The translations under genes were made by a program, and so were the position numbers. This document shows, piece by piece, positions 14,708 to 29,052 of a stretch of 41,861 nucleotides of DNA. How positions within the stretch are numbered: the stretch's first letter is position 1; every line of letters starts with the position of its first letter. This DNA is from Candidatus Omnitrophota bacterium (GTDB lineage Bacteria > Omnitrophota > Gorgyraeia > JAFGIU01), in contig JAFGIU010000078.1 of assembly GCA_016929445.1 (NCBI GenBank), forward strand, positions 1 to 41,861, read 5' to 3'. A model generated the notes under the pieces. That model did not search any database. It was given only the letters and a program-made list of their open reading frames with translations, and was not told the DNA's origin.

Positions 14708-15447
14708 TCATTGACGTGCACAATCACATCGGGCGAAGCGGGGACGGCTGCGAATCCCGTTTGGAAGATTTGTTTAGGGCCATGGAAGCGGGCGGAGTCG
14801 ACCGGACCGTGCTCTTTCCCGTTGACGACAAAGCTGAAGGGGCGGGCTACCGGAGCGCGAATGACCGGGTTTTGGAAGCCGCGCAGCAGCATCCGGGGAA
14901 GATCATTCCCTTCTGCCGCGTGAAGCCCGCAGAGGGAGAACCGGCTCTGCAAGAGCTGCGGCGCTGCGCAGAGCGGGGCCACCGGGGTGTGAAGCTGCAC
15001 CCGCGCTCCGACGAATTCAGCCCCGGACAGGCGCACGGCGTTCTGGAACTTGCCCAGGAGCTTGGGCTCCGCGTTGTGATCCATACCGAAAAAGAAGAGA
15101 ACTGCCGGCCGGATGAGTGGCGTCCGTTCTTTGAAGAATTCCAGGGCATCCATTTTCTTATCACGCACGGCGGTAAAGGGACCTACCGGACGCTGCACGA
15201 AGTGATCGGCCATTTGCGGAATGTCTGGGTGGATACGAGCGTGCTTTCCATGTTTCGCACCAGCTTCATTATGCAGCATTTGGGTTTGGACCGGATCGTC
15301 TACGGCACGGACTTTCCCTATTCCCACCCTTTATTGGAAACAAAGAAGCACGAACTCATCCTGAGCGAAGCGGATGACCGGGACAGGGTGTTCTACCGGA
15401 ATGCCTTGGATTTCCTGGGCGAGGTGAAAGGCGCTTTCTTGCTCTGA
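14704..15447 (+). CDS. Amidohydrolase-family (TIM-barrel) metal-dependent hydrolase
   Basis: 247 residues. IIDVHNHIG at the start supplies the HxH metal motif, GVKLHPRSDEF a third His, VVIHTEKEE a fourth and IVYGTDFPYSHP the terminal Asp, in the order expected for the amidohydrolase_2 family. These enzymes hydrolyse or decarboxylate small molecules. The start is TTG, within the TTGA that also ends the ATP-grasp gene, so the two are translationally coupled and may act on one compound, one making a bond and the other breaking it. Its last 55 bases overlap the 3' end of the convergent CHAD gene. Confidence 0.8.
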   Translation: MIIDVHNHIGRSGDGCESRLEDLFRAMEAGGVDRTVLFPVDDKAEGAGYRSANDRVLEAAQQHPGKIIPFCRVKPAEGEPALQELRRCAERGHRGVKLHPRSDEFSPGQAHGVLELAQELGLRVVIHTEKEENCRPDEWRPFFEEFQGIHFLITHGGKGTYRTLHEVIGHLRNVWVDTSVLSMFRTSFIMQHLGLDRIVYGTDFPYSHPLLETKKHELILSEADDRDRVFYRNALDFLGEVKGAFLL

Positions 15448-16994
15448 AAACGTTTCCACTGCGCGGGGAGCTTAGCCTCCAGAGATTGTATTTTGCGGTG
15501 CTGCTGCTCGATCATCCGGCCGAAAGCCAAAAGGAGTTCGGGGGAAGTGGGCTCCTTCGCATCTGTGTCGAAAGCGCTTTTCCTTAATAGCTCTGCCGCA
15601 AGATGCGTGTCGCGATGATTTCCGAGCAGTGTTTGCAGGGAGCTCAGACGCAGAATGAACTTGTCAAATCCCTTCCCATAGATTCCGCTGAACCACTCGC
15701 TCGTATAACGCAGTTGTTTGCAGGCGAGGCGCAGTTTATGCCAATCGCCTGGGTTCCCGTTTTGCAGGGCCTTTTTGCCCCAGCGTAGGACTTTGTTGTA
15801 TTGCCCTTCCAGGAGTTTAACCGCGGCCTCGGAGGCGGGGGTGCATGCCAAAGGGGCTCGGGGCCGCTGAGCAGGACCCTGCTCAAGAAAGGCTGTGAGG
15901 TTTGCGAGGAAGCTCTGGTAACGCGCGGAATCCAGAACCTCCAACATCTCTTGCCGGACGATTTCACGTTTCTCCATGAGCCGGGCCTGATACTGTCCCA
16001 CCGCATCCCCGTCCTCCTGGGCGGTGTAGAGATACCTGGAAATCATTTCCAAGTGATTATCATAATCCCGCACCCGGCCCAGGGCTTCCGCTATCCATTT
16101 GAGTGTGTTGTCGAAACTGATGACTTTGGAGGCCGGAAGCGCGTCTCCAAAGGTGACCCATGCAGCGCGCATCCGGCGGATCGCCACGCGCATGTCATGC
16201 ACAAATTCGGGATCCAAGCCCAAGCGGGCGCCGGGCTCGTTGGCCCGCATGAACTGAAAATGCGCGGCCAGGACCCGGTAAGCCAAATCAATGAGGCGGT
16301 CTTGGTGCCTTGCCGTGGGCCGCAGCGGCACTGCCGGCGCCGGGGGCTTGAGCTCCAAGGCCTGAAGGCTCCGGTTGAACTTGCTGCCGGCAGAGGCGGG
16401 GATCGAAGTCTTCTCGCACAGCTCGCGCAGGATTGTTTCCGTGACATGGACCGGCCCGTTCCAGTGCTCGATTTCAACTTCCCTAAATGTGTCTGTCAGG
16501 ACCGGGCGTTTCCCGTTGAGACGGAAAATGCGTGTGTGATCAATGGAGAGGGCCAACTCATGGTCTTCTCCGCGGCGCGCTGTGGCACAGGTGCGCTGGG
16601 TCTGGATTCTAAACAGGGGTTTGAGCCGCAGCGGGGCCCCGCATTGCTTGAGGTAGGCGCGGATCGCTCCCGGCGGAAGTGTGTTGAGGACTTTGCGAAT
16701 CGGGGCCTGCACTTCTTCGATTTCAGCGCGTTGGGCCACCCCGCTCTTGGCCTCAGTCAGAGCCTTGAGAAAAATCTGCAGGCCGGATTTGCTTTGACGC
16801 ACGCGAAGCGCGGCTCCGGCCCGGTAAAACCACCAATCCCGGGTATCCAGATAGATATCGCGGATTTGTTCCTCCCTGCGCACACCTTGTTTGAATTGGT
16901 AGTCGTTTTCCAGCAGAGAGAGCAAGGCCTCAAAGGCCTTTTCGTCCGCGTCCAGCTTGAGTTCCAATTCTTCTCTTCGCAGAAATCCGCTCAT
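15393..16994 (-). CDS. CYTH-CHAD domain protein (inorganic triphosphatase/polyphosphate-binding type)
   Basis: 533 residues. The N-terminal CYTH domain (about 1-215) carries the ExExK signature at residues 9-13 (ELELK) and alternating charged strands such as AALRVRQSKSG and LFRIQTQRTC. CYTH enzymes hydrolyse tripolyphosphate or related phosphates in an acidic-basic tunnel. The C-terminal CHAD domain (about 230-500) shows HDMRVAIRRMRAAW and HKLRLACKQLRY, the conserved His/Arg/Lys helices that bind polyphosphate. It is read from ATG 16994, opposite to its neighbours, and converges on the amidohydrolase gene with a 55-base overlap. Location beside SixA and the phosphate regulon supports a role in polyphosphate metabolism. 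Its leader contains the structured element at 17041-17286. Confidence 0.9.
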   Translation of the reverse strand: MSGFLRREELELKLDADEKAFEALLSLLENDYQFKQGVRREEQIRDIYLDTRDWWFYRAGAALRVRQSKSGLQIFLKALTEAKSGVAQRAEIEEVQAPIRKVLNTLPPGAIRAYLKQCGAPLRLKPLFRIQTQRTCATARRGEDHELALSIDHTRIFRLNGKRPVLTDTFREVEIEHWNGPVHVTETILRELCEKTSIPASAGSKFNRSLQALELKPPAPAVPLRPTARHQDRLIDLAYRVLAAHFQFMRANEPGARLGLDPEFVHDMRVAIRRMRAAWVTFGDALPASKVISFDNTLKWIAEALGRVRDYDNHLEMISRYLYTAQEDGDAVGQYQARLMEKREIVRQEMLEVLDSARYQSFLANLTAFLEQGPAQRPRAPLACTPASEAAVKLLEGQYNKVLRWGKKALQNGNPGDWHKLRLACKQLRYTSEWFSGIYGKGFDKFILRLSSLQTLLGNHRDTHLAAELLRKSAFDTDAKEPTSPELLLAFGRMIEQQHRKIQSLEAKLPAQWKRFQSKKAPFTSPRKSKAFR

Positions 16995-17015: not shown

Positions 17016-17032
17016 CCCCGCAGCCTGCGGGG
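17016..17032. repeat. Short perfect hairpin (CCCCGCA/TGCGGGG) in the CHAD leader
   Basis: Perfect 7-base arms at 17016-17022 and 17026-17032 around GCC. No T run follows on either strand, so a terminator is unlikely. It sits just outside the larger structured element and may be part of the same dispersed sequence. Confidence 0.4.
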
Positions 17033-17040
17033 TGTTAGCA

Positions 17041-17286
17041 TAGCACTGCGCTTGGGCCCGCGCAATCGCGGTCCAGCTTGGGTGTCAGGGCCACAGTCTA
17101 TGCAGCGAACCCTGAGGAGCCGCGTAGCGGCGTCTGGAAGGGCACAAGGGGTGCCTGCCACACGGTCAGGTCAAGACTCGGTTCACTCAGGAAGCTAAAG
17201 AAAGTATTCGCAAGGGGATGTAAGCTCCCGGTAAGTTCTTGGAGCCCCCACCACCAATGGCTTGACCTGCCTGAAGCGCAGTGTTA
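17041..17286. other. Highly structured intergenic element: candidate non-coding RNA or palindromic mobile element
   Basis: The two ends pair perfectly over ten bases, CACTGCGCTT (17044-17053) with AAGCGCAGTG (17274-17283), and extend outwards by three pairs including one G-U. A second long-range helix joins CAGGTCAAG (17167-17175) and CTTGACCTG (17261-17269). Between them lie several local hairpins: CCGCG/CGCGG at 17058-17071, CAGGG/CCCTG at 17086-17114, GCCGC/GCGGC around 17119-17131 and GGCAC/GTGCC around 17141-17155. Such nested structure fits a structured RNA of about 245 nucleotides. I do not match it to tmRNA, RNase P, SRP or a known riboswitch; one loop (TTCGCAAGGGG) faintly recalls 6S RNA. 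A folded dispersed repeat is the main alternative. The strand is not settled. Confidence 0.5.
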
Positions 17287-17322: not shown

Positions 17323-17829
17323 TTGAGACTTTTATTAATGCGCCATGCCACGGCGGTTCCCCGGGGGATTTTGAAACCTGGCCAGGATGCGGCGCGGCCC
17401 CTGACTGAGCAGGGGCGCCAAGAAGCCCGGGCCGTAGCTAATGGGTTGCAGAGAATAGAGTTAAAGATCGATCTGATTTTGAGCAGTCCATGGTTGAGAG
17501 CAAAGGAAACCGCCGAGAATGTTCTCGACGTATACAAAGGGGTGCCGGAGCTGTGTCTGTGCGAGGCCATGCAGGGGGATGCGAGCCCGCAAGAAACTTT
17601 CAATGCTCTGAGAGCCTACGTTGAATTTGGGATTATTCTGCTTGTAGGCCATGAGCCACACCTGAGCCGGCTCTTGGCTGAGCTAGTGACCCAGCGCGCC
17701 GACTTGGATGCGGTGTTCAAAAAGGCCGGAGTGGCATGCGCGGACTCCCACACGCGTCCTCCCCAGGCAGGCTCAGGTGTGTTACGCTGGCTGATGACCC
17801 GCAAGCAACTGGAATTGATCGGCAAGTAG
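17323..17829 (+). CDS. sixA: Phosphohistidine phosphatase SixA-like (histidine phosphatase superfamily)
   Basis: 168 residues, the usual SixA length. RLLLMRHATAVPRG places the RH catalytic pair at Arg7-His8, SSPWLRAKETAENV contains the conserved Ser-Pro and Arg, and LLVGHEPHLSRL holds the second catalytic His. SixA removes phosphate from histidine in phosphotransfer proteins. The start is TTG 17323, with AAGGAG (17307-17312) ten bases upstream, so LLLMRH sits at the very N-terminus as in other members. The kinase-like gene follows after 19 bases in the same direction. The real substrate could be a small phosphorylated metabolite instead of a phosphoprotein. Confidence 0.85.
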   Translation: MRLLLMRHATAVPRGILKPGQDAARPLTEQGRQEARAVANGLQRIELKIDLILSSPWLRAKETAENVLDVYKGVPELCLCEAMQGDASPQETFNALRAYVEFGIILLVGHEPHLSRLLAELVTQRADLDAVFKKAGVACADSHTRPPQAGSGVLRWLMTRKQLELIGK

Positions 17830-17848
17830 TCGATTGTGGAGACTGACA

Positions 17849-18541
17849 ATGGCAGAAGCCCCGCGACAGCAGAGACACCCCTATCCGGGAAGACTTATTA
17901 TCGTTGAAGGTATCGACGGCTCCGGCAAGAGCACCCAGCTGCAACTTATGGCTCGCTGGCTTGAGGCGCAGAGACACACTGTTTTCTTTACAGAGTGGAA
18001 CTCCTCGAAGCTGGTCAAGGAAACCACTCGTAAAGGCAAGAAATCCAAGACGCTGACTCCTCTCACATTCAGTTTGCTTCACGCAACGGACTTTGCAGAC
18101 CGTCTTTTCTACAATATTCTCCCTCCACTCAAGGCCGGAATGATTGTTTTGGCTGACCGCTATATGTACACGGCCTTTGCGCGCGATGTGGCACGCGGCT
18201 GTGACCGGGATTGGGTTCGCAAGCTTTACAGTTTTGCCATCAAACCCGACCTGGCTTTGTACTTCCGGGTTCCTGTGGAAATTTCTTTGGGACGTATTCT
18301 TTCGGGACGGGAGGCAATCAAGTATTACGAAGCGGGCATGGACCTTAACATGGGGGATGATCCGGTAGAAAGTTTTGTTAATTTCCAGACCAAGATCCTG
18401 GCAGAGTACGACCGTGTGGTTGACGAGTGCGAGATGCATGTGATTGACGCCTCTGCGGATATTGATGAGCAGCAGGATATTGTGCGTAAGACGGTTGTTG
18501 AAATGCTGCAAGACTACGAATCGGGGAAGCGGAATGGGTAA
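17849..18541 (+). CDS. Thymidylate kinase-like P-loop NMP kinase, first of a tandem pair
   Basis: 230 residues. RLIIVEGIDGSGKSTQ gives a canonical Walker A with Lys27. ATDFADRL is the substrate-binding Arg segment and DRYMYTAFAR corresponds to the DRY motif of dTMP kinases, but the following AYQ-type contact is replaced by AFAR. Near the C-terminus a lid-like YYEAGMDLNMGDD differs from standard Tmk. It clusters with CHAD, SixA and Pho genes rather than with DNA synthesis genes, so it is probably not the housekeeping Tmk and may use another phosphorylated substrate, perhaps linked to polyphosphate. I chose ATG 17849, preceded by GGAG at 17838-17841. It overlaps the next gene by 8 bases. Confidence 0.75.
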   Translation: MAEAPRQQRHPYPGRLIIVEGIDGSGKSTQLQLMARWLEAQRHTVFFTEWNSSKLVKETTRKGKKSKTLTPLTFSLLHATDFADRLFYNILPPLKAGMIVLADRYMYTAFARDVARGCDRDWVRKLYSFAIKPDLALYFRVPVEISLGRILSGREAIKYYEAGMDLNMGDDPVESFVNFQTKILAEYDRVVDECEMHVIDASADIDEQQDIVRKTVVEMLQDYESGKRNG

Positions 18542-19265
18542 AGTCAAATTTCTGGGAGAGGGAATACCGTATCTGGATTCATCCTCACTCAACCTGAAGG
18601 GCAAGCTGATTATTATTGAGGGGACTGATGGAGTGGGCCGGACCAGCCAGGTCGAAAAGCTGCGCAATCACCTGGAGATTCAGGGCTATGGGGTTGTGGA
18701 GACGGGCTGGACCCGCTCCAACCTGATGTCCAAACTTATCGAGCTGGCCAAAGAGGGAAATTCGCTGACACGGGAAACTTTTAGCATGCTTTATGCCACG
18801 GATTTTGCGGATCGCCTGGAAAATCAGGTGATCCCGGCTCTTCGCAGCGGTTTTGTGGTGATTTCGGATCGCTATGTTTACACTGCCTTTGCGCGTCACG
18901 GCGCCCGCGGGGGCAATCGCGAATGGATACGGGATGTTTACGGATTTTCACTGGTGCCGGACATCGTTCTTTATCTGAAGGTCGACGCAAAGACGCTTAT
19001 CCCCCGAGTTATCAAGGCCTCGGGTATGAATTTTTGGGAATCCGGTATGGACATGCGCATGGGGGAGGATCTGTACGACAGTTTTTGTGTTTACCAGGAA
19101 AAACTGATCAAAGAGTACGATGCCATGGCTGAAGAATACGGTTTTGAAGTTGTGGAAGCCCGCGACAGGTCCATTGGGCAGATCCACGAGGATATTTGCG
19201 GCCGGATCGAGCCGATTCTAAGGCGCTCCCGCGGCGTGGATCTCGCCAAGCTGCAGCAAAAATGA
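18534..19265 (+). CDS. Thymidylate kinase-like protein, second of a tandem pair, with Arg in place of the Walker A Lys
   Basis: 243 residues, clearly paralogous to the preceding protein: both have ATDFADRL, DRYxYTAFAR and a GMD(L/M)xMG(D/E)D segment. The P-loop here reads GTDGVGRTSQ, with Arg36 (codon CGG at 18639-18641) where the catalytic Lys should be. Arg at this place usually weakens or abolishes phosphoryl transfer, so it may be a regulatory partner of the first protein or use a changed mechanism. The N-terminus has about 20 extra residues before the first strand. I chose ATG 18534; the longer upstream frame runs inside the previous gene. Overlap with the first kinase gene implies coupled synthesis and perhaps a heterodimer. 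Confidence 0.75.
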   Translation: MGKVKFLGEGIPYLDSSSLNLKGKLIIIEGTDGVGRTSQVEKLRNHLEIQGYGVVETGWTRSNLMSKLIELAKEGNSLTRETFSMLYATDFADRLENQVIPALRSGFVVISDRYVYTAFARHGARGGNREWIRDVYGFSLVPDIVLYLKVDAKTLIPRVIKASGMNFWESGMDMRMGEDLYDSFCVYQEKLIKEYDAMAEEYGFEVVEARDRSIGQIHEDICGRIEPILRRSRGVDLAKLQQK

Positions 19266-28153: not shown

Positions 28154-28996
28154 ATGGTAAAGACTATGGATAAGCAAAAAGAGTCTAATCAATCGCGAAT
28201 ACCCAAAGCACAGGTCGGGCCTGATAGTCTGCAAAGTTCGTCCAAGCCCGCGTTGACTGTACAAGAGCTGGATGTCTATTATGGAAAGACGCAAGCTCTC
28301 AAGCAGATCAACATGACAGTGCCTGAGCACCGGATATCGGCTTTGATTGGCCCCTCAGGCTGCGGCAAGTCCACCTTGTTGCGCTGCTTTAACCGGATCA
28401 ATGACCTGATCGAGGAGTTTAGGGCGGAGGGGAAGATTCTTCTGTATGATGAGAACATTTTAGATCCCGGGATTGATGTGACCGGATTGCGCAAGAAAAT
28501 CGGAATGGTTTTCCAGAAGCCGAACCCGTTCCCTATGACCATTTATGAGAATGTGGCCTACGGTTTGCGTGTGGACGGAATCAATAACCGGGAGTATTTG
28601 AGGCAGGCTGTTGAAGAGAGCTTGAAGAGCGCAGCTCTTTGGGATGAAGTCAAGGACCGTCTTGAGAGTAACGCCTTACGTTTGAGCGGGGGCCAGCAGC
28701 AACGCCTTTGTATTGCGCGCGCTATTGCCAACAAGCCGTCTGTCTTGCTGTTGGATGAGCCGTGTTCAGCCCTGGATCCGATATCCACTGCCAAGATCGA
28801 AGAGTTGTTGCACCAGCTCAAAGAGAGATATACGATTGTGATTGTGACTCACAATATGCAGCAGGCTGCGCGGGTTTCAGATATAACGGGGTTTATGTTG
28901 CTGGGAGATTTGGTGGAGGTAGGCAAGACGGATGAGCTCTTCACAAACCCCGAGGATGAGCGCACTGAGGCTTACATAACCGGAAGATTCGGCTAG
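28154..28996 (+). CDS. pstB: Phosphate ABC transporter ATP-binding protein PstB
   Basis: 280 residues. Walker [11 protein letters not shown] loop [12 protein letters not shown] (the PNPFP variant is characteristic of PstB), signature LSGGQQQRL, Walker [14 protein letters not shown] and the H loop VTHNMQQA. The first 30 or so residues are a poorly conserved extension, so the start could be ATG 28154 (GAGGGG just upstream) or ATG 28166. It powers phosphate import with PstC and PstA. Hairpins sharing a GGTGTC core lie on both sides of the gene. Confidence 0.95.
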
Positions 28997-29010
28997 GGTG
29001 TCAGGCACCC
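28996..29010. repeat. Short hairpin GGGTG/CACCC after pstB
   Basis: Arms at 28996-29000 and 29006-29010 around TCAGG. Its GGTGTCAGG core resembles that of the hairpin before pstB, suggesting the same repeat family. No T run follows. Confidence 0.3.
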
Positions 29011-29052
29011 GGTCAACCAGTAGATTCGGGTTTGAAGAATCGAGAGTAAATA

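Follow-up and report, generated by a model that had tools for sequence, protein, structure and literature searches.

The 246 bases at positions 17041-17286 of the window, by which we mean the whole analysed stretch of 41,861 nucleotides, are very probably a normal divergent intergenic region holding a fossil REP doublet, i.e. a REPIN/BIME-like non-autonomous repeat, together with a 43-bp tail. As claimed in an earlier note on this DNA, the region is placed between two divergent genes, one for a CYTH-CHAD protein of 533 aa (15393-16994, minus strand; Pfam PF05235 and PF01928) and the other for a SixA-type phosphohistidine phosphatase of 168 aa (17323-17829, plus strand; TIGR00249 above cut-off). 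Both long-range pairings described there are also present, namely a perfect terminal helix of 10 bp (CACTGCGCTT at 17044-17053 with AAGCGCAGTG at 17274-17283) and an inner helix of 9 bp (CAGGTCAAG at 17167-17175 with CTTGACCTG at 17261-17269). If the arms of the terminal helix are taken as 17041-17053 and 17274-17286, 12 of 13 positions match. The claimed 246-nt structured element is, however, not a unit. A search of the own genome with 17041-17286 returned one full copy and several partial copies, all of which cover the middle only, and neither 17041-17077 nor 17212-17286, the two parts that include the terminal arms, has a second copy in the genome. Accordingly, the idea of a non-autonomous mobile element holds for the core at 17078-17168, a REP doublet whose palindrome family is RAYT-associated and spread over the whole genome, but not for the 246-bp delimitation, since the arms of the terminal helix are single-copy and lie outside the shared part.

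The palindrome defining this family, GTGCCTGACAC, occurs in 108 exact copies in the 2.43 Mb of the genome, whereas the reversed control has 2. In the list of 100 sites, 26 neighbouring pairs are at most 100 bp apart, where about 0.4 would be expected, and the pairs within 100 bp have a fixed polarity: 15 are in the order -/+ (GTGTCAGGCAC...GTGCCTGACAC) and none in the order +/-. Family copies are organised either as inverted doublets, e.g. GGGTGTCAGGCACCAC-N(23)-GTGGTGCCTGACACCC, or as tandem 13-bp arrays, and paralogues of a doublet variant with an internal GAGGAGCCGC hairpin, full-length or partial, are present on contigs 113, 18, 61 and 104. On contig 36, five exact REP copies are clustered around a tRNA-Met gene (C36:501-940). 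Inside the window, REP copies are found at 17078-17168 and at 28996-29013, both of them intergenic. The latter is a singlet, GGGTGTCAGGCACCCGGTCAACC, located between a PhoU-domain gene and the end of the gene upstream, which by its appearance resembles a phosphate-type ABC ATPase gene.

Homology of the region to other loci extends over 17078-17211. Its first part, 17078-17168 on the plus strand, is a decayed doublet of the variant with the internal GAGGAGCCGC hairpin (E 1.2e-23 in the own-genome search), sharing 86% identity with the family sequence over 95/98 positions. According to the sequence and the alignment of the paralogues, the left REP arm (17080-17094, minus strand) reads GGGTGTCAGGGCCAC instead of the family form GGGTGTCAGGCACCAC, and the right arm (17148-17163, plus strand) reads GGGGTGCCTGCCACAC instead of GTGGTGCCTGACACCC; both are degenerate. 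Between them lies the internal hairpin GAGGAGCCGC-GTA-GCGGCGTCTG (17114-17136, plus strand), whose closing pair is gone in the window copy, with G/G in place of G/C. The second part of the homology is the 43-bp tail (17169-17211, plus strand), which pattern search, alignment and the neighbouring genes place beside REP doublets at two other loci: on contig 36 upstream of tRNA-Met and on contig 113 upstream of phosphofructokinase. Allowing up to three mismatches, the tail pattern matches exactly three sites of the genome, and the reversed control none. To the right of the tail, 17212-17286 is unique sequence with a bulged GC-rich hairpin at about 17214-17246; 17209-17286 alone has a fold z of about 0.

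In order to assess the state of the window copy, we compared it with its paralogues. An intact doublet gives fold z values of -6.5 and -7.2, the window copy +0.6 and -2.0. Relative to the family, the window copy carries uncompensated substitutions and an indel, and in a five-copy alignment it breaks five base pairs that are intact in the paralogue on contig 113. None of the five aligned core copies has a pair changed on both sides; compensatory changes in homologues, whose lack had been named in the earlier note as the sign against a conserved RNA, are therefore absent for the core. The loss of five base pairs together with zero compensatory changes indicates that the window copy is decaying DNA and not a conserved RNA. 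Most likely, it is a fossil without an RNA role, which presumably has lost its mobility.

The abundance of structure had been described as far more than expected by chance, which was not borne out by comparison with shuffled sequences. Perfect 10-mer inverted matches spaced by 60-260 nt number 9 in the window and 9.8 +/- 4.2 in dinucleotide shuffles, and for 9-mers at the same spacing the values are 38 and 37.6 +/- 7.5. At the exact 246 bases, the fold z is -1.8 on the plus strand and -3.0 on the minus strand, and equally low values are reached by 9% and 1.3%, respectively, of 226 evenly spaced windows of 246 nt from the same contig. In all six frames shifted by 25 to 100 nt, the z lies between -1.24 and +0.55; the signal is therefore carried by the terminal helix, on which the ends of the region had been chosen. 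Frames built on other chance 10-mer helices yield z values that include -2.5 to -3.8, and with the arms of 17041-17286 fixed and the interior shuffled, z is +0.2 (plus) and -1.4 (minus), so the real interior does no better than shuffled interiors. Taken together, the 10- and 9-mer counts, the shifted frames, the chance-anchored frames and the fixed-arm shuffles show that 17041-17286 is not unusually structured if one corrects for how its ends were picked. In a window of this length, matches as long as the outer 10-bp and inner 9-bp ones are to be expected, and both are coincidences. The minus-strand z of about -3 at the exact ends is still mildly low, which counts against the reading as a REP fossil.

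These results leave little room for a regulatory RNA of about 246 nt, either an sRNA or a minus-strand leader of the CHAD mRNA, that would act in the phosphate/polyphosphate module. Such a role would agree with the same minus-strand z, with the placement between divergent genes and with the vicinity of CHAD and SixA to PhoB/PhoR-like genes and a phoU-like gene, but the core is a dispersed repeat that is found upstream of unrelated genes, its pairs are lost without compensation and, in the fixed-arm shuffles, the real interior had no advantage over shuffled ones. Moreover, no Rfam family reached its gathering score, the best relaxed match being RsmY with 13.4 bits where 57 are needed, 39 sampled relatives from the class had no match, and no consensus promoter or terminator was found. 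Searches for orthologous CHAD loci gave none in the searched genome contigs and only distant domain-level matches in 147 genomes of the class, so that the outer helices have no homologues in any of these relatives, contigs and genomes. With nothing credible in Rfam, no match in the 39 relatives, five broken pairs and an interior at chance level, neither a novel structured RNA nor a leader of the CHAD gene finds support. A faint tRNA-likeness of 17215-17257 was also followed, and the tRNA/tmRNA reading was rejected, as ARAGORN found neither on the window.

We also considered that the REP doublet and its tail (17078-17208) might have been inserted into an older, perfect-ended hairpin element of about 115 nt, MITE-like or regulatory, composed of 17041-17077 joined to 17209-17286. 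The joined flanks do fold into a single long hairpin with z values of -4.1 (plus) and -3.1 (minus); yet, with the arms fixed, the interior z is about -1.1, and deletions of 131 nt elsewhere give similar values, down to -4.9. The strong joined-flank hairpin was therefore rejected as a pre-insertion element, the effect being due to the arms alone. As the joined sequence is single-copy in the genome and no clean target-site duplication was seen, we regard this scenario as quite improbable, and a role of such an older long hairpin as regulatory RNA or DNA at a CHAD/SixA divergent promoter, interrupted by the doublet and tail, as just as improbable. An integron attC-like recombination site, which the ends recall through their imperfect hairpin and a right edge reading ...GTTAG, is extremely improbable: by inspection, the left end has no RYYYAAC box and the pairing is continuous without an unpaired spacer between boxes, and the site is single-copy in the genome.

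The preferred reading, a fossil REP doublet in an ordinary intergenic region, is consistent with the presence of a transposase gene on contig 38. This Y1_Tnp gene (L040:1186-1938, minus strand; 250 aa) scores above the Pfam cut-off and has REP arrays directly at both sides in inverted orientation. The flanking triplets consist of conserved 13-bp palindromes, GGTGCCAGGCACC, GGTGCCTGGCACC and AGTGCCTGACACC, at L040 1183-1222 and 2449-2498, and the downstream triplet runs into the transposase gene, where it codes for the last residues. The only NCBIfam match of the protein is the REP-associated tyrosine transposase NF047646, with 70 and 72.4 bits at a cut-off of 80. The arrays at this gene are of the tandem 13-bp variant and differ from the doublet type of the window, which is a point against the fossil reading, as are the NCBIfam score below cut-off and the absence of the conserved GTAG foot of classical REPs. 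A RAYT gene flanked by inverted REPs is a described arrangement (PMC2817692), likewise for REPINs (PMC3116915), and in these systems the doublets are regarded as the mobile unit and degenerate copies as defunct remnants. Intact copies form near-perfect hairpins as single-stranded DNA, and by analogy to the studied REP/RAYT systems such hairpins would be cleaved and joined by an HUH/Y1 transposase. The candidate enzyme for this reaction is the contig 38 transposase, whose gene has the same palindromes in inverted orientation on either side, and a REP-associated transposase is probably what spread the family. A REP doublet probably once settled in the CHAD/SixA divergent intergenic region, along with the tail that is seen beside doublets at two other loci.

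The family resembles REPINs and BIMEs (PMC3116915, PMC2817692) in its short palindrome with about 100 copies, its fixed-polarity inverted doublets forming a hairpin, its tandem clusters, its Y1 transposase gene between inverted REPs and its decayed singlets and doublets. It differs from them in the perfect 13-bp units of GGTGCCWGGCACC type that form tandem triplets beside the RAYT gene, and in the additional internal hairpin and the tail of the doublet variant found in the window, where the copy itself is degenerate. In size, dispersal and dimer organisation, it is also similar to the GTAG- and CGTC-tagged REP superfamilies (PMC3733652), but neither tag was noticed by eye at the palindrome ends; in the listed contexts, inspected by eye, there is no common GTAG before the palindrome at its foot, unlike in the classical groups 2 and 3. 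With the ends of the IS200/IS605 family, whose transposases are of the Y1 HUH type, it shares a Y1_Tnp domain gene with palindromic flanks; unlike in an autonomous IS, the repeats far outnumber the gene, in RAYT fashion.

These findings dispose of an apparent lead to a structured RNA, which proved false. As a side result, they document a RAYT/REP-type system whose GGTGCCTGACACC palindrome is untagged, in a lineage for which the searched collections contain no close relatives. Several Neobacillus/Bacillus-type genomes also carry the inverted palindrome pair GGTGTCAGGCACC...GGTGCCTGACACC, there embedded in AT-rich sequence, through either horizontal spread or convergence, so that the transposases could be compared. 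In the literature searched, no mention of the GGTGTCAGGCACC palindrome was found and GGTGCCTGACACC appeared only in unrelated papers; a distant-mode search of plasmid records gave no match. Two further observations concern the neighbourhood of the region. Just outside of it, upstream of the CHAD start codon by about 20 bp, lies a perfect hairpin with an 8-bp stem, CCCCGCAG-C-CTGCGGGG (17016-17032), the sequence of which, CCCCGCAGCCTGCGGGG, occurs only once in the genome. Downstream of sixA, at 17834-19265, two thymidylate-kinase-like genes are arranged in tandem, adjacent and overlapping.
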